Below, piece after piece: positions 18,185-33,460 of a stretch of DNA of 64,000 nt. The DNA is taken from NCBI RefSeq assembly GCF_030867095.1, contig NC_081824.1:303568956-303632955 (forward strand), written 5' to 3'. Made by a program: the position numbers and the translations under genes. Source of the DNA: Alligator mississippiensis. Lineage: Eukaryota; Chordata; Crocodylia; Alligatoridae. How positions within the stretch are numbered: position 1 is the first letter of the stretch; every line of letters starts with the position of its first letter. The notes beneath the pieces were generated by a model. It saw only the letters and a list, made by a program, of their open reading frames with translations, was not told the origin of the DNA and did not search any database.

Positions 18185-21178
18185 CTAAATGACCCCAGCT
18201 AGATACTCGTCTAACCTCCTCTTGAAGACCCCCAGGGTAGGGGAGAGCACCACCTCCCTTGGGAGCCCGTTCCAGACCTTGGCCACTCGAACTGTGAAGA
18301 AGTTCTTCCTAAGGTCCAGTCTAAATCTGCTCTCTGCTACCTTGTGGCCATTGTTTCTTGTAACCCCCGGGGGCGCCTTGGTGAATAAATCCTCACCAAT
18401 TCCCTTCTGTGCCCCCATGATGAACTTATAGGCAGCCACAAGGTCGCCTCTCAACCTTCTCTTGCGGAGGCTGAAAAGGTCCAGTTTCTCTAGTCTCTCC
18501 TCGTAGGGCTTGGTCTGCAGGCCCTTGACCATACGAGTTGCCCTTCGCTGTACCCTCTCCAGGTTATCCGCATCCTTCTTGAAGTGTGGCGCCCAGAATT
18601 GCACGCAGTACTCCAACTGCGGTCTGACCAACGCCCTATAGAGGGGAAGTATCACCTCCCTGGACCTATTTGTCATGCATCTGCTGATGCACGATAAAGT
18701 GCCATTGGCTTTTCTGATGGCTTCGTCACACTGCCGGCTCATGTTCAACTTGGAGTCCACTAGGACTCCAAGATCCCTTTCCACCTCCGTGCCACCCAGC
18801 AGGTCATTCCCTAGGCTGTAGGTGTGCTGGACATTTTTCCTCCCTAGGTGCAGCACTTTGCATTTCTCCTTGTTGAACTGCATCCTGTTGTTTTCTGCCC
18901 ACTTGTCCAGCCTATCCAGGTCTGCCTGCAGCTGTTCCCTGCCCTCCGGCGTGTCCACTTCTCCCCATAGCTTTGTGTCATCTGCAAACTTGGACAGAGT
19001 ACATTTCACTCCCACGTCCAAGTCGCTGATGAAGACATTAAAGAGTATCGGTCCAAGGACCAAACCCTGCGGGACCCCACTGCCCACACCCTTCCAGGTC
19101 GAGACCGACCCATCTACCACGACTCTTTGGGTGCGACCCTCTAGCCAATTCGCCACCCACCGGACTGTACAGTCATCTACATCACAGCCTCTTAATTTGT
19201 TCACCAGTATGGGGTAGGATACCGTATCGAAGGCCTTCCTGAAGTCCAGGTATACGACATCCACCCCTCCCCCTGTGTCCAGGCGTTTCGTAACCTGGTC
19301 ATAGAAGGAGACTAGGTTGGTCAGGCACGATCTGCCCGCCACAAACCCATGCTGGTTTCCCCTCAGCATAATTTGGCCTGCCGGGCTCTCACAAATGTGA
19401 GCCTTGATAATTTTTTCAAATACTTTACCAAGGATGGAGGTGAGACTGACCGGCCTATAGTTGCCCGGGTCCTCCTTCCTCCCCTTTTTGAAAATGGGGA
19501 CCACGTTAGCCCTTTTCCAGTCCTCCGGGACTTGGCCTGTGCGCCACGAGCATTCGAATATTCCCGCCAGTGGCTCTGCAATGACGTCGGCCAGTGCCTT
19601 CAGCACCCTGGGATGGAGCCCATCCGGGCCTGCCGACTTAAAGGCATCCAGTTCTTCCAAGTGACTCTGCACCACCTCAGGATCTACGCATGGAAGTCTG
19701 GCGCCTTGCTGCTGCCTCTCTACAACCCCAGTGAGAGACCTGTCGTGCCCCTCGCTTAGGAACACTGAGGCAAAGAACTCGTTGAGGAGTTCAGCCTTGT
19801 CCCCTCTATCTGTCACCAATTGCTTCTGCCCATTTAGCAGGGGTCCTATTCCTCCCTGGGCCTTCCTTTTACTCCCTATGTATCTAAAAAACAATTTCTT
19901 GTTGTCCTTTACTTGGGTTGCCATCCTCAGCTCCATGGTAGCTTTGGCCCGCCTAACTGCCTCCCTACAAGCACGAGCAGAGGAGGTATATTCATCTTTA
20001 GTGATCTCACCCTGTTTCCACTTTTTATGTGCTCCCCTTTTGGCCCTTAGGCTGCCCTGGATTTCTCTGGTCAGCCATGGAAGCCTCCTGGCCCCTTTCC
20101 CTCTTTTGCCTCGCTCGGGGATTGTCTTGCTTTGTGCCCAAAGGATCGTTTCCTTTAGGCACAGCCACCCTTCTTGGGCACCCATCCCATCAAAACTCCT
20201 ACTCTGCAGTGCTTCCTTGACTAATCGCCTGAGTGCAATGAGATCAGCTTTCCTAAAGTCTAGCACTTTCACCCTACTAGTTACCTTTCCCACTCGCCGT
20301 CTTATGTTGAATTCTATCATAGGTGATCACTGTCTCCCAGATAGCTACCGATTTGGAGGTCCCCTATCATGTCATCTCCCGTTGCCAATACCAGATCCAG
20401 TATGGCATTCCCCCTAGTGGGACCATGCACCTCCTGTGTCAGGTGGAGGTCCTGTACACAAGTTAGAAACCTGCGTGAGCGATGGGACCTTGCTGTCTGC
20501 GTCTCCCAGCAGATGTCCAGGTAGTTTAGGTCCCCCATGACTACCGCCTCTTTAGCTTTTATGGTCTCCGAGAGTTGCCTCAGGAGCCCCGCATCTATTT
20601 CTTCCCCTTGGTGTGGGGGTCTGTAGCAGACCCCTACCACCAAATCCCTTTCTCCTTGCCCCCCATGTAGCCTAACCCACAATCCTTCTACTTCCTCAGC
20701 CTCGGATTCTGTCTTGATGAGGGTTGATGTATATTGCTCACTGACATAAAGTGCAACCCCCCCCCCCTTTCTTCCCCGACCTGTCCTTTCTGTACAATCT
20801 ATAGCCCTCAATATGTACCGCCCAGTCATGGGATGAATCCCACCAGGTCTCTGTTAGCCCCACTAAGTCATAGGTGTTTAGTGCAAGCAGGAGCGCTAGT
20901 TCATCCTGCTTGTTCCCCATGCTCCTAGCATTAGTATATAGGCACTTGAGCCCTGCGACTGGCGCCTTTGCTGCCCCCCTGCTCCCAGTCCCATGGGGCC
21001 CATTGTTTCTTACCTTCTTGTTCCTTACCTGTTCTGTTGTGCTGGCCTCCCCATGGCTTTCAGGTTCCCAATGTTCTCCTTCTTCAAGCTGGGCTGTCCT
21101 TGTGGGTGCCACATGGTTTGGTGGTCCACAGCTTCCCCTGCCCTCGTACTCCCCTCCCCCCGACGAGCCTAGTTTAAA
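18185..21178 (-). pseudogene. CR1-B ORF2: AP endonuclease and reverse transcriptase, two frameshifts
   Basis: In CR1 elements ORF2 nicks DNA (APE-type endonuclease) and reverse-transcribes the element RNA at the nick. Here the protein is spread over three frames. 21178-20738 carries the linker and endonuclease start (LYTNARSMGNKQDEL, TETWWDSS). 20829-20317 carries GVCYRPP, VVMGDLNYLDI and GDSDHL. 20320-18185 (711 codons) carries the remaining linker and the RT ([39 protein letters not shown], catalytic KFADDTKLW) and the C-terminal thumb-like region. The first break lies at a run of 12 C (plus strand, 20756-20767); the second is a small deletion after GDSDH. GVPQGLVLGP differs from GVPQGSVLGP elsewhere. 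The frame is open from the ORF1 slip site without an AUG. Inactive as it stands unless the C-run is a sequencing error and the second break is repaired. Confidence 0.9.
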
Positions 21179-22233
21179 GCCCGCCGGAGGAGATCCGCCA
21201 ACCTAGAAGAAAACACACGCTTACCTTTGGGGGACAGGTGAAGCCCATCCCAGCTGAGCATGTCCCTCGTCGTGATGTGCGGGTCATGGTCCAGGAAGCC
21301 GAAGCCTGCCTCGAGACACCACTGCCGAAGCCGCCAGTTGGTCTCTCTGATGCAGTTCTCCTGCCGTCTTCCTCGTCCGGTCACTGGTAGGATGGAAGAG
21401 AAAACCACCTGGGCACCGAACTCCTTCAGCACGCCGCCCAGAGCACAGTAGTCCGCCATCAAGTGATCGGGGGTTCTCCTGGCCGCATCATTAGTACCCA
21501 CATGGACTAGGACCATGGGGTAATAATCGGTGGGCTTGATCCTGGCCTGGATTACCTCCGTCACATCCCGAATCTTTGCTCCAGGGAGGCAGCATACCTC
21601 TCGTGCCGAGGGGTCCTGGCGACAGATGGGTCCTTCCGTACCTCTCAGGATGGAGTCTCCTATGACGAGCACTCGTCGCCTCTTCCTCTGGGTCATCGTG
21701 GATCTCTTGATCTGTTTGGGGTGTGAAGAACGTGGTGTTTCTTCTTGCCCAAGGGTGTCCTCCTCCCCTTCCATCTCCTGCAGGGTCGCCAGGGCCTCGT
21801 ACCTGTTCACCAGTCGGACTGGAGAAGCTGGTACCGGTTCTCTGCGTGCCGCTCCGGTCCTGGCTGTGACCGTCTGCCACTCTGCTGTGGAGGGTATTCC
21901 CCGGGGTGCTTCTTCCTTTGGTGCCTGGGCCTGCAGGGAAAGGAAATAACTGTCAATTTCATCCTCCGCCTCCCTGATCCCCCTCAGCCTGCTAACCTCC
22001 TCCCGGAGCTCCCTCACCTGCGCCTCCAGGGCCCTAAGACGGGCACCTGCTGGACAGGTGTGGGGGCCCCCAATCTCTGCTCCCCCCGGCCCTGCTGGGG
22101 ATCCCCCACAGGCCAGGAGGTAGGGGGACACCGGCTCCCCCATGGGCTTGGTCTGGGTGGAGGCCTCAGACCTGCCCCGGGTAGCCTTGTCCCCCTGGGC
22201 AGAGGCACTAGCAGTACTCCTCGTAGACACCAT
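21169..22233 (-). CDS. CR1-B ORF1 protein with SGNH/GDSL esterase domain
   Basis: Product of about 354 residues. I chose the AUG at 22233-22231 (MVSTRSTASA) because it aligns with the ORF1 start of copy F; the frame is open further upstream to 22353. Residues about 85-125 form a predicted coiled coil (RLRALEAQVRELREEVSRL), followed by a charged linker. Residues about 188-354 are the SGNH hydrolase fold seen in CR1 ORF1: catalytic block GDSILRG (Ser194), HVGTND (Gly246, Asn248) and DGLHLSP (Asp329, His332). Family knowledge: such proteins bind RNA and have esterase activity whose role in transposition is unsettled. The frame is intact. It ends CGG CGG GCT TTA AAC TAG, placing a slip heptamer directly before the stop. 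Confidence 0.9.
   Translation of the reverse strand: MVSTRSTASASAQGDKATRGRSEASTQTKPMGEPVSPYLLACGGSPAGPGGAEIGGPHTCPAGARLRALEAQVRELREEVSRLRGIREAEDEIDSYFLSLQAQAPKEEAPRGIPSTAEWQTVTARTGAARREPVPASPVRLVNRYEALATLQEMEGEEDTLGQEETPRSSHPKQIKRSTMTQRKRRRVLVIGDSILRGTEGPICRQDPSAREVCCLPGAKIRDVTEVIQARIKPTDYYPMVLVHVGTNDAARRTPDHLMADYCALGGVLKEFGAQVVFSSILPVTGRGRRQENCIRETNWRLRQWCLEAGFGFLDHDPHITTRDMLSWDGLHLSPKGKRVFSSRLADLLRRALN
21172..21178 (-). promoter_or_regulatory. Candidate -1 ribosomal frameshift site in CR1-B
   Basis: In the ORF1 frame the minus strand reads GC[T TTA AAC] TAG: heptamer U_UUA_AAC in the phase needed for tandem -1 slippage, directly before the ORF1 stop. A -1 shift enters the ORF2 frame, which stays open from here into the endonuclease domain. 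Ten nt after the heptamer comes a G-rich tract with four G-runs (GGGGGGAGGGG, then GGGCAGGGG; 21161-21134) that could form a G-quadruplex. A CTCGT/ACGAG stem is also possible. Confidence 0.65.
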
Positions 22234-28496: not shown

Positions 28497-28645
28497 GGGG
28501 GTACTCACCAGCCCCCCTCCAGTAAGGCAGGGTCCCCCAAATCCTGGGCAGGGCCCCCGTATTTGCCTTAAGAGCAGCTTCCTCGACGGCAGGCCCACTG
28601 TGCATGCGCGCAGTTTAAAAGGGCCCGCCGACCGGGAAAAAGCCC
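28218..28645 (+). repeat. CR1-F 5' leader unit 1 (tandem, period 428 bp)
   Basis: Starts AGTTAGACACGGGAGCGGCG; about 245 bp of it recur at 28646-28890 with few changes, including GCAGCCGGGGTAAGCGGGGC and AAGGGGCTAACCCCTTAGTG. Its distal part (28463-28645) has a GA microsatellite (28462-28493), a GCATGCGCGCA word and TTTAAAA at 28614-28620, 26-32 nt before the start of unit 2. This looks like promoter sequence preceding a transcript start. Confidence 0.8.
28462..28493 (+). repeat. (GA)n microsatellite in CR1-F leader
   Basis: About 16 GA repeats within the first leader unit; absent from the second unit, which reads GGGAGCCACGCG there. Confidence 0.95.
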
Positions 28646-28650
28646 AGTTA
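28614..28650 (+). promoter_or_regulatory. Putative promoter at the CR1-F monomer junction
   Basis: TTTAAAA at 28614-28620 sits 26-32 bases before AGTTAGAC (28646), which is the first base block of both leader units. Position and GC-rich context suggest a TATA-like box plus transcription start. Copy B has TTTAAA in its leader too. Inference only. Confidence 0.4.
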
Positions 28651-29032
28651 GACGCGGGAGCGGCGAGAGACGTGCGGGTGGAAGCTCGCTGCGCCCCCGC
28701 TCCCCTGAAGCCCCCCAGAAACCCTCCAGCAGCCGCGGAGCCCCCCGCTGACCCCCAGCGCAGCTGGGGTAAGCGGGGCCCGTGGAGAGAAGGGGCTAAC
28801 CCCTTAGTGTGTGTGTGGGAGGCGGCGGCTGAGTGGAGTCAGGCCGGGTCAAGCCCCGCCCAGGCCCCTACTTCGCCCAGCCCCCCAGGGAGCCACGCGA
28901 ACAGGCTGCACAAACAGGCACGCTTCTCTGCCGGCGCGTGAGTTAGCGTGGAGTTCGTGCGGGAGGGCGCCAGACCCTGCCTGCACACCCCCCAGGGTAG
29001 ACAGTCCCAGCTGTAGCCAGCCTACCAGAGGC
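28646..29032 (+). repeat. CR1-F 5' leader unit 2 and ORF1 5' UTR
   Basis: Repeats the opening of unit 1 (AGTTAGACGCGGGAGCGGCG) up to the word CAGCCCCCCAGGGAG near 28890, then diverges (GCCACGCGAACAGGCTGC) toward ORF1. It contains a splice-donor-like G|GTAAGC at about 28769. Very GC- and CpG-rich. Confidence 0.75.
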
Positions 29033-30130
29033 ATGACACGGATGGGCACGCGCCGCACCCCGAGGGTCCCCTCGGGCTCCGCGGCCCCCCCCTCTGGCAC
29101 CTCAGAGACAGCCACCCAGATGGAGCCCCTGGTTCCGGGCTCCACGCAGACGGAGCCCCTGGCTCTCGGCTGCGGGGGCTGCCTGTCCCTTTTTCAGGCT
29201 CTGGGACCTGGGAGCATGGCGACCTCCCCTTGCGGGGTCTGCTCCCTTTTGGGGTCTCTGGCACGCCAGCTGGAGGAGCTCCAGGCCACAGTCCACAGAC
29301 TGCGTGCCATCAGGGACTGCGAGCAGCAGATAGACTCCTACTGCCAGGCCCTTCTCCCCCGGGAGGCAGAGGGTAGATCACAGTCTCCCTCCAGGCCAGA
29401 GGAGGACTCTGGGACCTCCTGCTGTGTCCAGCCAGGGGCATGGACCAAGGTGGTCAAGGGCCCTAAGGCCCGCCGCACCAAGGCCCCACCCCCGCCACAA
29501 CTGAGCAACAGGTATGCACCTCTTGCTGCCCCAGCAGAGCCTGCTGAGTTGCCGGCCCCCACAGGCAACATGGGCCCAACTGCAACTCCCGCCCCTGCTC
29601 TCCCCAAGACAAAACGTAAGGTGTTTGTTGTGGGAGACTCCCTCCTGAGGGGGACAGAGGGGCCAATCTGCCACCCTGACCCCTTAGCCCGGCAAGTCTG
29701 CTGCTTCCCAGGGGCCCGCATCCGGGACATTGCAGAGAGGATCCCCAAGCTCCTCAAACCCACAGACCGCTATCCCATGCTCCTTATTCATGTGGGCACC
29801 AATGACACGGCTCGGAGCACTCCCAGCCAGGTCATGAGGCGCTACAGGGATTTGGGAGCGGGGCTTAAGGGTCTGGGGGCACAGGTGGTGTTCTCGTCGA
29901 TCCTCCCAGTCTCAGGCTATGGGCTGAGAAGGGACAGGAGGATCTATGTGGTCAACCAAAGACTGCGGCGCTGGTGTCGTCAGGAAGGCTTTGGCTTTCA
30001 TGACCACAGCCCGCTCTTTGGCGAGAGAGGCAGCGAGCTGCTGGGAAGAGATGGTCTCCACCTCTCTCCCCTAGGGAGGAGGCTCTTCTCAGCCAGACTG
30101 GCTGACCTGCTCCACCGGGGTTTAAACTAA
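29033..30130 (+). CDS. CR1-F ORF1 protein with SGNH/GDSL esterase domain, intact
   Basis: 365 residues from the AUG at 29033 (MTRMGTRRTPRVPSG); the frame is open upstream to 28811 but the homologous start in copy B supports 29033. Near residues 45-70 there are two CX2C pairs (CGGC and CGVC) that might bind zinc; copy B lacks them. A coiled coil follows (LARQLEELQATVHRLRAI, about residues 75-100), then a proline-rich linker. The SGNH hydrolase domain shows GDSLLRG (Ser203), HVGTND (Gly255, Asn257, Asp258) and DGLHLSP (Asp340, His343). In the CR1 family ORF1p is thought to bind element RNA and to have esterase activity. The last codons are CGG GGT TTA AAC TAA, giving the slip heptamer described at 30121. 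Confidence 0.93.
   Translation: MTRMGTRRTPRVPSGSAAPPSGTSETATQMEPLVPGSTQTEPLALGCGGCLSLFQALGPGSMATSPCGVCSLLGSLARQLEELQATVHRLRAIRDCEQQIDSYCQALLPREAEGRSQSPSRPEEDSGTSCCVQPGAWTKVVKGPKARRTKAPPPPQLSNRYAPLAAPAEPAELPAPTGNMGPTATPAPALPKTKRKVFVVGDSLLRGTEGPICHPDPLARQVCCFPGARIRDIAERIPKLLKPTDRYPMLLIHVGTNDTARSTPSQVMRRYRDLGAGLKGLGAQVVFSSILPVSGYGLRRDRRIYVVNQRLRRWCRQEGFGFHDHSPLFGERGSELLGRDGLHLSPLGRRLFSARLADLLHRGLN
30121..30127 (+). promoter_or_regulatory. Candidate -1 ribosomal frameshift site joining CR1-F ORF1 to ORF2
   Basis: ORF1 codons read GG[T TTA AAC] TAA, so the heptamer U_UUA_AAC is in the correct phase and abuts the stop. The same heptamer in the same phase serves as the -1 slip site in coronavirus replicase genes. 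A -1 shift reads TTT AAA CTA AGC and continues in ORF2 without a stop. Ten nt later come GGGGG (30138-30142) and GGGGG (30145-30149), and an exact 8-bp stem CTGCTGGC/GCCAGCAG (30161-30168 with 30190-30197). TTA is an odd Leu codon in this GC-rich frame, where neighbouring Leu codons are CTG/CTC. Confidence 0.65.
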
Positions 30131-33042
30131 GCCCGCTGGGGGACGGGGGCACGACCGCCACTGCTGGCCCGCTGAGCAAATCTTGCAAAGCCAGCAGATC
30201 ATGGCACTCAAGGGAGCCCGCCCCAGCCCCAGCCCTGGTAAAATCTGTGGGCAAGGAAGGAGCCCCCCAGGGGGCGCTTGCCTGCCTGTACACAAATGCC
30301 AGGAGCTTGGGGAATAAGCAGGAGGAGCTCATCCTCCTGCTCAGTGCGAACAATTACGATGTCATAGGGATCACGGAGACCTGGTGGGACTCCACCCATG
30401 ACTGGACCATGGGGATAGATGGCTATACCCTGTACAGGAGGGATCGTGTAGAGAAAAGGGGCGGGGGTGTAGCTCTCTATGTTAAGGAAAGCTACGCGTC
30501 CCTGCAAGCCGATATTGGCGACCAGGGTGGACGGCTGGAGACCCTCTGGGTTAAAATCCGTGGGGAACACGGCACAGGGGACACAATGGTGGGAGTCTAT
30601 TACAGACCTCCCACCCAAAGTCCTGAGCTAGACCAGGAGTTTGCCCAGGAACTGGCTGAGGCAGCTTCCTCCAGGACCATGGTTGTCATGGGTGACTTCA
30701 ATTACCCAGACATCTCGTGGGAGGATCGCTTAGCAAAATCTGAGCGGTCGCAGAGCTTCCTCTCGTGCGTGGATGACCTCTACCTGACTCAAGAAGTCTA
30801 TGGACCAACGAGAGGCAAAGTGCTGCTCGACCTGGTGCTGGCTACTGGGGAGGACCTAGTCAGCGACCTAGTGATCGATGGGAAGCTGGGTGACAGCGAC
30901 CACAAGCTGATCACCTTCACCATCCGCCGAAAAGCTGGCAAGTCGGTCAGCAACACGCAAGTCCTTGACTTCAGGAAAGCCGACTTTGACAAGCTCAGGA
31001 GGCTTGTCAGTGAGGCCCTAAGGGACTGTGACCGCAGGGAGAGGGGAGTTCAAGAAGAGTGGTTGCTCCTCAAGGGAGCGATCCTCAATGCACAAACTAA
31101 GTCTATTCCATCTCGGAGGAAAGGCAGCAAGAGGGCACAGCAGCCCCCCTGGCTCTCCAGGGACCTAGCAGACCTCCTGAGGCTAAAAAGAAAGGCCTAC
31201 AAAGGATGGAGGATGGGAGTCACCTCCAAGGAGGATTATTCTGCACTGGTCTGGTCCTGTAGGGAGCAGACCAGGAAAGCCAAGGCTGCAACTGAACTCC
31301 AGCTAGCTTTGAGCATCAAGGACAATAAAAAGTCCTTTTTCAGATATGTGGGGAGCCGGAGGAAAAGCAGAGGCAACGTTGGACCCCTGCTGAACCAGAT
31401 GGGGCAACTGACAACTGACGCCCAGGAAAAAGCCAACCTATTAAATAGGTACTTTGTGTCGGTCTTTCATCAGCCCCATGGGACGCCCGTGCCTGCTACA
31501 GGGCCGGGAAGTCCGGGTGAGGGTGATCCCCTGCCCTCCATTAATGCTGACTTTGTGAAGGAACATCTTGAGAAGCTGGATACCCTCAAGTCAGCTGGCC
31601 CTGACAATCTTCACCCCAGGGTACTCAAGGAGCTGGCGAGCATCATAGCCCAGCCTCTAGCGCGGATCTTTGAAAACTCTTGGCGCTCTGGTGTAGTGCC
31701 TGAAGACTGGAAGAAGGCCAACGTGGTGCCTATCTTCAAGAAAGGGAGGAAAGTGGATCTGGCTAACTATAGGCCCATCAGCCTGACTTCTATCCCGGGG
31801 AAGATCTTAGAAAAGTTTATTAAGGAGGCCATCCTTAATGGACTGGCCGACGCCAACATCTTAAGGGATAGCCAGCACGGGTTTGTTGCGGGTAGGTCTT
31901 GCTTGACCAATCTCATTTCCTTCTACGACCAGGTGACCTATCACCTGGACAAGGGAGATGAGATTGATGTCATATATCTTGACTTCAAAAAAGCCTTCGA
32001 TCTGGTGTCCCATGATCGTCTCTTGGAGAAACTGGCCAATTGTCGCCTTGGGGCCCCCATGATCCACTGGCTGGAAAATTGGCTCCGGGGTCGGACCCAG
32101 AGGGTAGTAATTGATGGAAGTCACTCATCGTGGTGTCCTGTGACCAGTGGGGTCCCCCAGGGCTCTGTCCTTGGACCCATACTGTTCAACATCTTCATTA
32201 ACGATGTGGACACTGGAGTCAGAAGCGGACTGGCCAAGTTCGCCGATGACACCAAACTTTGGGGCAAAGCATCCACACCAGAAGACAGGCGGGTGATCCA
32301 GGCTGACCTGGACAGGCTCAGCAAGTGGGCGGATGAGAATCTGATGGTGTTCAACGCCGATAAATGGAAGGTTCTCCACCTTGGGAAGAAAAACCCGCAG
32401 CATCCTTATAGGCTCGGCAGTGCTATGTTGGTTAGCACTATGGAAGAAAGAGACTTGGGGGTCATCATTGACCACAAGATGAACATGAGCCTGCAATGCG
32501 ATGCTGCGGCTAGTAAAGCGACCAAAACGCTAGCTTGCATCCATAGATGCTTCTCAAGCAAATCCCGGGACGTCATTCTCCCCCTGTACTGGGCCTTAGT
32601 GAGGCCGCAGCTGGAGTACTGCGTCCAGTTTTGGGCTCCACAATTCAAAAAGGATGTGGAGAAGCTTCAGAGAGTCCAGAGAAGAGCCACGCGCATGATC
32701 AGGGGTCAGGGAAGCAGACCCTACGATGACAGGCTGAGAGCCCTGGGGCTCTTTAGCCTGGAAAAGCGCAGGCTCAGGGGTGATCTGATGGCCACCTACA
32801 AGTTTATCAGGGGTGATCACCAGTATCTAGGGGAACGTTTGTTCACCAGAGCGCCCCAAGGGATGACGAGGACGAATGGTCACAAACTACTACAAGATCG
32901 TTTCAGGCTGGACATAAGGAAGAATTTCTTTCCTGTCCGAGCCCCCAAGGTCTGGAACAGCCTGCCACCGGAGGTTGTTCAAGCGCCTTCATTGAACACC
33001 TTCAAGATGAAACTGGATGCTTATCTTGCTGGGATCCTATGA
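30127..33042 (+). CDS. CR1-F ORF2: AP endonuclease-reverse transcriptase, uninterrupted
   Basis: Target-primed reverse transcription enzyme of the LINE. The frame is open from 30106 to 33042. The first AUG (30409) lies inside the endonuclease, so I place the coding start at the frameshift point; other programs may start at a GTG (30247). Numbering from 30247: endonuclease motifs LYTNARSLGNK (Asn17), GITETWWDS (Glu44), VVMGDFNYPD (Asp150, Asn152) and GDSDHKL (Asp218, His219); a basic linker with KSFFRYVGS; RT with [53 protein letters not shown] and the FADD box (665-668); then the C-terminal region ending DAYLAGIL. About 931 residues, a normal length for CR1. Cys-to-Trp in NADKWKVLHLG and Thr-to-Pro in FFPVR may reduce activity. 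Confidence 0.92.
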   Translation, partial: LSPLGDGGTTATAGPLSKSCKASRSWHSREPAPAPALVKSVGKEGAPQGALACLYTNARSLGNKQEELILLLSANNYDVIGITETWWDSTHDWTMGIDGYTLYRRDRVEKRGGGVALYVKESYASLQADIGDQGGRLETLWVKIRGEHGTGDTMVGVYYRPPTQSPELDQEFAQELAEAASSRTMVVMGDFNYPDISWEDRLAKSERSQSFLSCVDDLYLTQEVYGPTRGKVLLDLVLATGEDLVSDLVIDGKLGDSDHKLITFTIRRKAGKSVSNTQVLDFRKADFDKLRRLVSEALRDCDRRERGVQEEWLLLKGAILNAQTKSIPSRRKGSKRAQQPPWLSRDLADLLRLKRKAYKGWRMGVTSKEDYSALVWSCREQTRKAKAATELQLALSIKDNKKSFFRYVGSRRKSRGNVGPLLNQMGQLTTDAQEKANLLNRYFVSVFHQPHGTPVPATGPGSPGEGDPLPSINADFVKEHLEKLDTLKSAGPDNLHPRVLKELASIIAQPLARIFENSWRSGVVPEDWKKANVVPIFKKGRKVDLANYRPISLTSIPGKILEKFIKEAILNGLADANILRDSQHGFVAGRSCLTNLISFYDQVTYHLDKGDEIDVIYLDFKKAFDLVSHDRLLEKLANCRLGAPMIHWLENWLRGRTQRVVIDGSHSSWCPVTSGVPQGSVLGPILFNIFINDVDTGVRSGLAKFADDTKLWGKASTPEDRRVIQADLDRLSKWADENLMVFNADKWKVLHLGKKNPQHPYRLGSAMLVSTMEERDLGVIIDHKMNMSLQCDAAASKATKTLACIHRCFSSKSRDVILPLYWALVRPQLEYCVQFWAPQFKKDVEKLQRVQRRATRMIRGQGSRPYDDRLRALGLFSLEKRRLRGDLMATYKFIRGDHQYLGERLFTRAPQGMTRTNGHKLLQDRFRLDIRKNFFPVRAPKVWNSLPPEVVQAPSLNTFKMKLDAYLAGIL

Positions 33043-33136
33043 CCCCAGCTGACGTCCTGCCCTTTGGGCGGGGGGCTGGACTCGATGATCTTCCAAGGTC
33101 CCTTCCAGCCCTAATGTCTATGAAATCTATGAAATG

Positions 33137-33460
33137 TCTATAAATATTCTTGCCAGTGGCTGCGCAATGACGTCAGCCAGTGCCTTCAATACCCTCGGAT
33201 GGAGCTCATCCAGGCCTGCCGACTTAAATGTATCCAGTTCTTCCAAGTGACTCTGCAGTATCTCAGGGTCAACGCTTGGTAGTCTGGCGCCTTGCTGTTG
33301 TCTCTCTACAATCCCATTGTGAGACTTGTCTTGCCCCTCGTTTAAGAACATTGAGGCAAAGAACTCATTGAGGAGTTCAGCTTTGTCCCCTCTGTCTGTC
33401 ACCAATTGTTTTTGCCCATTCAGTAGCGGTCCTATTCTGCCCTGGGCCTTTCTTTTCCTC
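33137..33460 (-). mobile_element. CR1 copy D, 5'-most part
   Basis: Continues copy D on the minus strand: an open frame from 33405 carries LVTDRGDKAELLNEFFASMF-like and HLEELDTFKSAGLDELHPRV, matching the copy B linker/RT start. D is 5' truncated at about 33460, just before a pyrimidine-rich tract (TCCTTTCCTTTTTTCCTTCC). Confidence 0.88.

Follow-up and report, generated by a model that had tools for sequence, protein, structure and literature searches.

A candidate -1 programmed ribosomal frameshift site at the ORF1-ORF2 junction of CR1 retrotransposons in Alligator mississippiensis

How do ribosomes that translate a CR1 LINE reach its second reading frame when the first one ends in a stop codon and the second one lies in another frame? 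The question is raised by a CR1 copy, called the focal copy here, that lies in a 64,000-nucleotide stretch of the Alligator mississippiensis genome (the window). A preliminary description of this DNA interpreted the junction of the two ORFs as a -1 programmed frameshift site. The features of the focal copy that bear on this interpretation are as follows.

28600..33150, plus strand: focal CR1 LINE copy, the stretch used as query, with approximate ends (~28.6-33.1 kb)
29033..30130, plus strand: ORF1, from the first in-frame ATG to the stop, with a GDSL/SGNH esterase domain and the C-terminus ...RGLN
30121..30127, plus strand: slippery heptamer T_TTA_AAC in ORF1 phase, unchanged in 30/30 family copies fetched
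30128..30130, plus strand: ORF1 stop codon TAA, abutting the heptamer
30106..33042, plus strand: ORF2 from stop to stop, in the -1 frame, 978 codons, encoding an endonuclease and a reverse transcriptase

The Pfam scan identified an esterase domain in the focal ORF1 (PF13472, 46.2 bits against a cut-off of 32.9), and the solved structure closest to this ORF1 is the ZfL2-1 esterase (4c1b, E 1.6e-32, alignment A1). According to the available text of PMC3905857, the same domain is found in the ORF1 of esterase-type CR1/ZfL2-1 elements. The focal ORF2 carries PF03372, PF14529, and PF00078 in the Pfam scan, that is, an APE endonuclease followed by a reverse transcriptase. With an esterase in ORF1 and an endonuclease and reverse transcriptase in ORF2, the focal element is an esterase-type CR1 LINE. 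In protein searches the top match of ORF1 came from A. mississippiensis (94% identical), and homologues of ORF2 came from birds, turtles, lizards, and the alligator. Repeats resembling TCTATGAAA are present near 33115-33145, in the 3' end region of the focal copy.

The ORF1-ORF2 overlap in two CR1 families

The focal ORF1 ends with GGT TTA AAC TAA (30119-30130). ORF1 and ORF2 overlap by 25 bases, and T_TTA_AAC lies inside this overlap in the phase that suits -1 slippage, immediately followed by the stop codon. The -1 frame is bounded upstream by a TGA stop at 30103-30105. The junction coordinates, the phase of the heptamer, the abutting stop, and the open -1 frame from 30106 to 33042 were all found as the preliminary description gave them. 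In the ORF2 frame the Asn of YTNARS is codon 64 and the Glu of TETWW is codon 91. Glu91 aligns with the Glu of the L1 endonuclease in a match that starts after Asn64; the Asn is presumably a catalytic endonuclease residue as well. The string TTTAAAC occurs 22 times on the two strands of the window against 9.9 expected, so the string by itself means little and its position matters. The junction is the only site across the focal ORF1 at which an in-phase slippery heptamer of the pattern tested was found.

A second, diverged CR1 family is represented in the window by a broken copy on the opposite strand.

21169..22230 (start approximate), minus strand: ORF1 of the second CR1 copy, ending ...RALN
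21172..21178, minus strand: second-copy slippery heptamer T_TTA_AAC, with TAG as the next codon
20738..21202, minus strand: 5' part of the second copy's ORF2, in the -1 frame; it reads without a stop across the heptamer into the endonuclease, and farther downstream the copy is broken

The ORF1 of this family is 44% identical to the focal ORF1 over 362 residues and ends with CGG GCT TTA AAC TAG. It contains one in-phase slippery heptamer (same pattern tested), and that heptamer is located at the same place as in the focal ORF1. In other words, an X_XXY_YYZ heptamer in 0-frame phase lies within the ORF overlap in both families. A further copy of the second family, in the flank of L015, displays an identical heptamer and stop. 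In the 50 kb beside the window, CR1 ORF2 fragments are present at L032, L033, and L035, and tblastn found no ORF1 match there; inspection upstream of the longest of these fragments (L033) revealed no junction.

Copies of the focal family were collected from the rest of the genome. The ORF2 search of the 2.35-Gb genome yielded 323,288 candidates, 47 of which were scored. All 47 are 97-100% identical, with 36 lacking an internal stop and 11 having one; the family is thus a young CR1 family. Thirty of the 47, including the focal copy, were examined. All 30 retain TTTAAACTAA with the heptamer in phase, an agreement that is weak evidence because the copies barely differ (a mean of 0.67 of 30 copies differing per column of the 420-column junction alignment). 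The search query started 15 bases ahead of the heptamer and so was biased towards copies that are intact there. The junction reads GCT TTA AAC TAA in 29 of the 30 copies, so the C-terminus of the family is ALN; the G before TTTAAAC is private to the focal copy. Through this private C-to-G change at 30120 the focal copy also gains GGGTTTA, another in-phase heptamer, which immediately precedes and overlaps TTTAAAC.

ORF2 start codons and termination-reinitiation

Translation of ORF2 from a start codon of its own depends on where AUG codons occur in its frame. Two positions are relevant in the focal family.

30409..30411, plus strand: first ORF2-frame AUG of the focal copy (codon 102), ATG in 6/30 copies
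30586..30588, plus strand: first ORF2-frame AUG in 23/30 family copies (codon 161)

It had been proposed that the ORF2 frame has no AUG until 30409, past the endonuclease Asn and Glu, and that ORF2 consequently cannot use its own AUG without losing the endonuclease. The first part is accurate for the focal copy, but the family is more varied, as the AUG at 30409 is shared by just 6 of the 30 copies and one copy (L016, the sole such case among the 30) has its first ORF2-frame AUG already at codon 16. Codon 161 comes after both Asn64 and Glu91. In the second family there is no AUG in the -1 frame before the endonuclease Asn, and the first Met follows this Asn (TNARSM). Neither family in the window thus conserves an AUG ahead of its endonuclease. 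Among the ORF2 models of birds, turtles, and lizards, however, many carry such an AUG, ~8-33 residues ahead of YTNA. The argument from a missing ORF2 start codon is accordingly family-specific.

One alternative to frameshifting is that ribosomes terminate at the end of ORF1 and restart nearby on ORF2, at an AUG where one is present and at a non-AUG codon in the families described here. The available parts of PMC2881922 and PMC5972666 report such termination-reinitiation for the LINEs SART1 and L1. Like CR1, these elements have a bicistronic RNA and an ORF2 whose translation depends on ORF1, and the touching of ORF1 and ORF2 at the CR1 junction, together with the AUG before the endonuclease in many bird, turtle, and lizard models, is in keeping with the same mechanism. 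The CR1 junction nevertheless differs from that of SART1 and L1. The stop contexts TAAGC (focal) and TAGGC (second family) are without a UAAUG-type stop-start overlap, and an ORF2-frame AUG near the stop is absent in the second family and in 29 of the 30 focal-family copies, so that neither the stop-start overlap nor the close start codon of SART1/L1-type reinitiation is found. Furthermore, reinitiation leaves unexplained why TTTAAAC is retained in exact phase and why the -1 frame is open all the way back to the heptamer. Reinitiation could serve in those bird, turtle, and lizard ORF2s that bear an AUG but could hardly operate at an AUG in the two families here, and as an account of this junction it appears unlikely.

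Conservation of the junction between families and in other animals

Related elements of other animals were compared through the proteins that they encode. The C-terminus is LN in 42 of 59 ORF1 homologues and RALN in 40; the set covers turtles, birds, a lizard (Salvator), and poison frogs. A motif test picked out 38 homologues that extend to the esterase end, and 37 of them finish with LN; the sole exception is an ostrich model (P0123). A frog model that stops short (P0157) was not matched by the motif test and is outside the 38. In an alignment of 18 ORF1 sequences with a mean column identity of 30%, whose rows were chosen after the ends had been seen, R362, L364, and N365 are invariant.

In the other frame, the peptide FKL is found upstream of the endonuclease in 37 of the 63 ORF2 models that have at least 60 residues there, or in 30 of 50 when the 13 models from a search whose query held FKL are set aside. 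The 37 FKL rows are not independent because 32 of them come from one stork (Mycteria); ibis, duck, crane, godwit, and wall lizard contribute one each. The 26 models without FKL mostly carry, by our reading, foreign upstream exons. An LN-stop and an FKL in overlapping frames would force TTTAAAC, and in this way bird and lizard models imply the heptamer at the protein level. D, G, K, T, S, and E, the residues that follow FKL, all have codons starting with A or G, which fits an abutting TAA or TAG because a stop at that place requires it. At residues 4-6 after FKL, G is present in 29, E in 31, and G in 32 of 34 rows; GEG at these residues would place a G-rich stretch at the same offset as the G tract of the alligator families described below.

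These observations point to the same signal in related CR1s of birds and lizards, and perhaps of turtles and frogs. For birds and lizards they come from gene models, in which the LN end and FKL were not read from one DNA, and for turtles and frogs they cover the ORF1 end only. No CR1 loci of other animals were found in scans of viral contigs, genome contigs, phages, and plasmids. Two of the models have features of their own. An ibis model (P0001) includes GFKLKDSGVRVQ as a second unit with a further endonuclease start behind it, and possibly represents another family with the same junction. A lizard-like ORF2 model (P0006) begins with a Met that immediately precedes GVG, the counterpart of GEG in the alignment; provided that the spacing is kept, an AUG would be located ~9 nt after the heptamer in that family.

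Is the heptamer conserved beyond what the proteins demand? The two alligator ORF1s share 165 identical residues, 162 of them with degenerate codons, and 73 of these 162 are codon-matched. For conserved Leu residues the codon matches in 7 of 20 cases, and the TTA of the junction is among the seven. From the heptamer onward, ungapped identity between the two families is 9/10, then 7/10 and 6/10, and beyond ~30 nt it is 1-4/10, which is about chance, with gaps contributing there. The linkers that follow can hardly be aligned, yet the frame and its openness are kept in both families; open linkers alone are weak evidence because many shuffled sequences are open as well (659/2000 for the focal linker and 92/2000 for the second-family linker). 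The heptamer is thus retained at the nucleotide level between two diverged families, beyond protein constraint. Outside this genome, conservation beyond protein constraint is suggested by the protein models.

The same data bear on the two remaining alternatives. The RALN peptide might be conserved for a function of its own, with the heptamer as an unused by-product, and the 40 of 59 homologues that end in RALN, as well as the invariant R, L, and N of the 18-sequence alignment with its preselected rows, are what such a function would produce. However, selection for RALN does not fix TTA, which, as the preliminary description remarked, is an unusual Leu codon (2/42 Leu codons in the focal ORF1 and 1/30 in the second-family ORF1), and it does not account for FKL in the other frame. 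We regard this explanation as quite improbable. Shared ancestry with too little time for decay, or chance, is already disfavoured and the least credible of all, because the near identity of the 30 same-family copies that would speak for it is not matched between the two families, where synonymous sites are largely randomised and identity falls away within a short distance of the heptamer.

Downstream sequence and the frameshift model

Frameshift sites may be assisted by downstream sequence, and three features were considered as stimulators.

30138..30149, plus strand: G tract GGGGGACGGGGG, candidate stimulator, starting at +11; its position matches the GEG peptide of bird and lizard models
21151..21161, minus strand: second-copy G tract GGGGGGAGGGG, which likewise begins at +11
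30161..30197, plus strand: 8-bp stem (30161-30168 with 30190-30197), present in the focal copy and unaligned in the second family

The preliminary description had noted a G tract 11 nt past the heptamer, which is indeed located there, and a perfect 8-bp stem. The stem exists in the focal copy, but its perfect pairing does not extend to the family: position 30196 differs in 28 of the 30 copies, in which a G turns a U-A pair into a U-G wobble, and the stem has no aligned counterpart in the second family. The 120 nt downstream of the focal heptamer gave a folding z of -1.81, with 10 of 200 shuffles folding equally well; the second family gave +1.58, and 40 smaller downstream windows ranged from -1.7 to +2.3. 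No shared or significant downstream structure was found when nested folds of both families, free of pseudoknots and quadruplexes, were compared with shuffles. A comparison of 29900-30500 with Rfam gave no hit at E values up to 1. The proposal that the stem, or the minimum-energy fold of the focal copy, serves as stimulator was therefore rejected, as the folding is not significant and is not shared between the families. The G tract at a fixed +11 is the best candidate, and it may act through RNA or through a bound protein. In the second family the G tract continues as GGGGGGAGGGGAGTACGAGGGCAGGGG, which fits a simple G-quadruplex motif.

The best explanation of the junction is that it is probably a -1 programmed ribosomal frameshift site. 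The earlier interpretation gains support from the second family, from codon retention, and from the LN and FKL ends of protein models, and the heptamer, whose loss or change of phase in relatives would have spoken against it, is in place and in phase in the 30 copies, the second family, and the L015 copy. In this model, ribosomes on CR1 RNA would finish ORF1 at U_UUA_AAC with a stop codon next in line. The majority would terminate there and release the ORF1 (esterase) protein. A minority would slip back by one base on the heptamer into the -1 frame, cross a variable linker (~35-100 residues in the families seen), and continue into the endonuclease and reverse transcriptase. The product would be an ORF1-ORF2 fusion made in a gag:gag-pol-like ratio, with a linker whose sequence and length vary while its frame is kept. 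What the sequence shows is the phase, the abutting stop, the open -1 frame, and the retained heptamer; that ribosomes slip there, how efficiently they do so, whether the fusion is cut later, and that the G tract acts as stimulator are inferences.

How does this junction compare with known systems? According to the available part of a frameshift review (PMC5009743), U_UUA_AAC ranks with the heptamers at which mammalian ribosomes shift most readily and is the site of IBV, in agreement with the earlier remark that it drives coronavirus frameshifting. The CR1 junction has the same heptamer in the same phase as coronavirus and other U_UUA_AAC sites. It differs from the coronavirus sites in that the stop abuts the heptamer and that no strong conserved structure was found by a model without pseudoknots. 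As in gag-pol of retroviruses and LTR elements, the end of the first ORF would link an upstream protein to a downstream polymerase in the -1 frame. However, CR1 is a non-LTR LINE, and the Pfam scan found no protease family in the focal copy, so the CR1 fusion might stay uncut. The gag gene of HeT-A, a non-LTR telomeric element, is said to need a frameshift (PMC5009743, available part), but HeT-A encodes no reverse transcriptase and is thus not a case of ORF1-ORF2 coupling.

The preliminary description had called for a literature check on whether frameshifting at this heptamer is described for CR1, and no such description was found. The word "frameshift" does not occur in the available text of PMC3905857 (on the ZfL2-1 esterase) or of PMC4120745, and CR1 does not occur in that of PMC5009743. 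Among titles and the starts of abstracts, none describes CR1 frameshifting; this search did not extend to the founding descriptions of CR1, which may mention the overlap. The junction would thus be an instance of an established recoding device in a kind of element for which no description of it was found, and its novelty is provisional.

Few LINEs have a known strategy for making two proteins from a single RNA, and in those it is reinitiation. A broader proposal, which we consider evenly poised between true and false, is that an ancient cassette (GC U_UUA_AAC UAR with a G-rich element at +11) couples ORF1 and ORF2 in all tetrapod esterase-type CR1s in a gag:gag-pol-like ratio, and that crocodilian lineages, having no back-up ORF2 AUG, depend on it wholly. 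If frameshifting does take place, the fusion protein is a prediction that can be searched for, and a single heptamer offers a testable handle on the ORF1:ORF2 ratio. Were such a frameshift deeply conserved in a retrotransposon that is dominant in birds, crocodilians, and turtles, LINE expression would come near to the gag-pol strategy of retroviruses.
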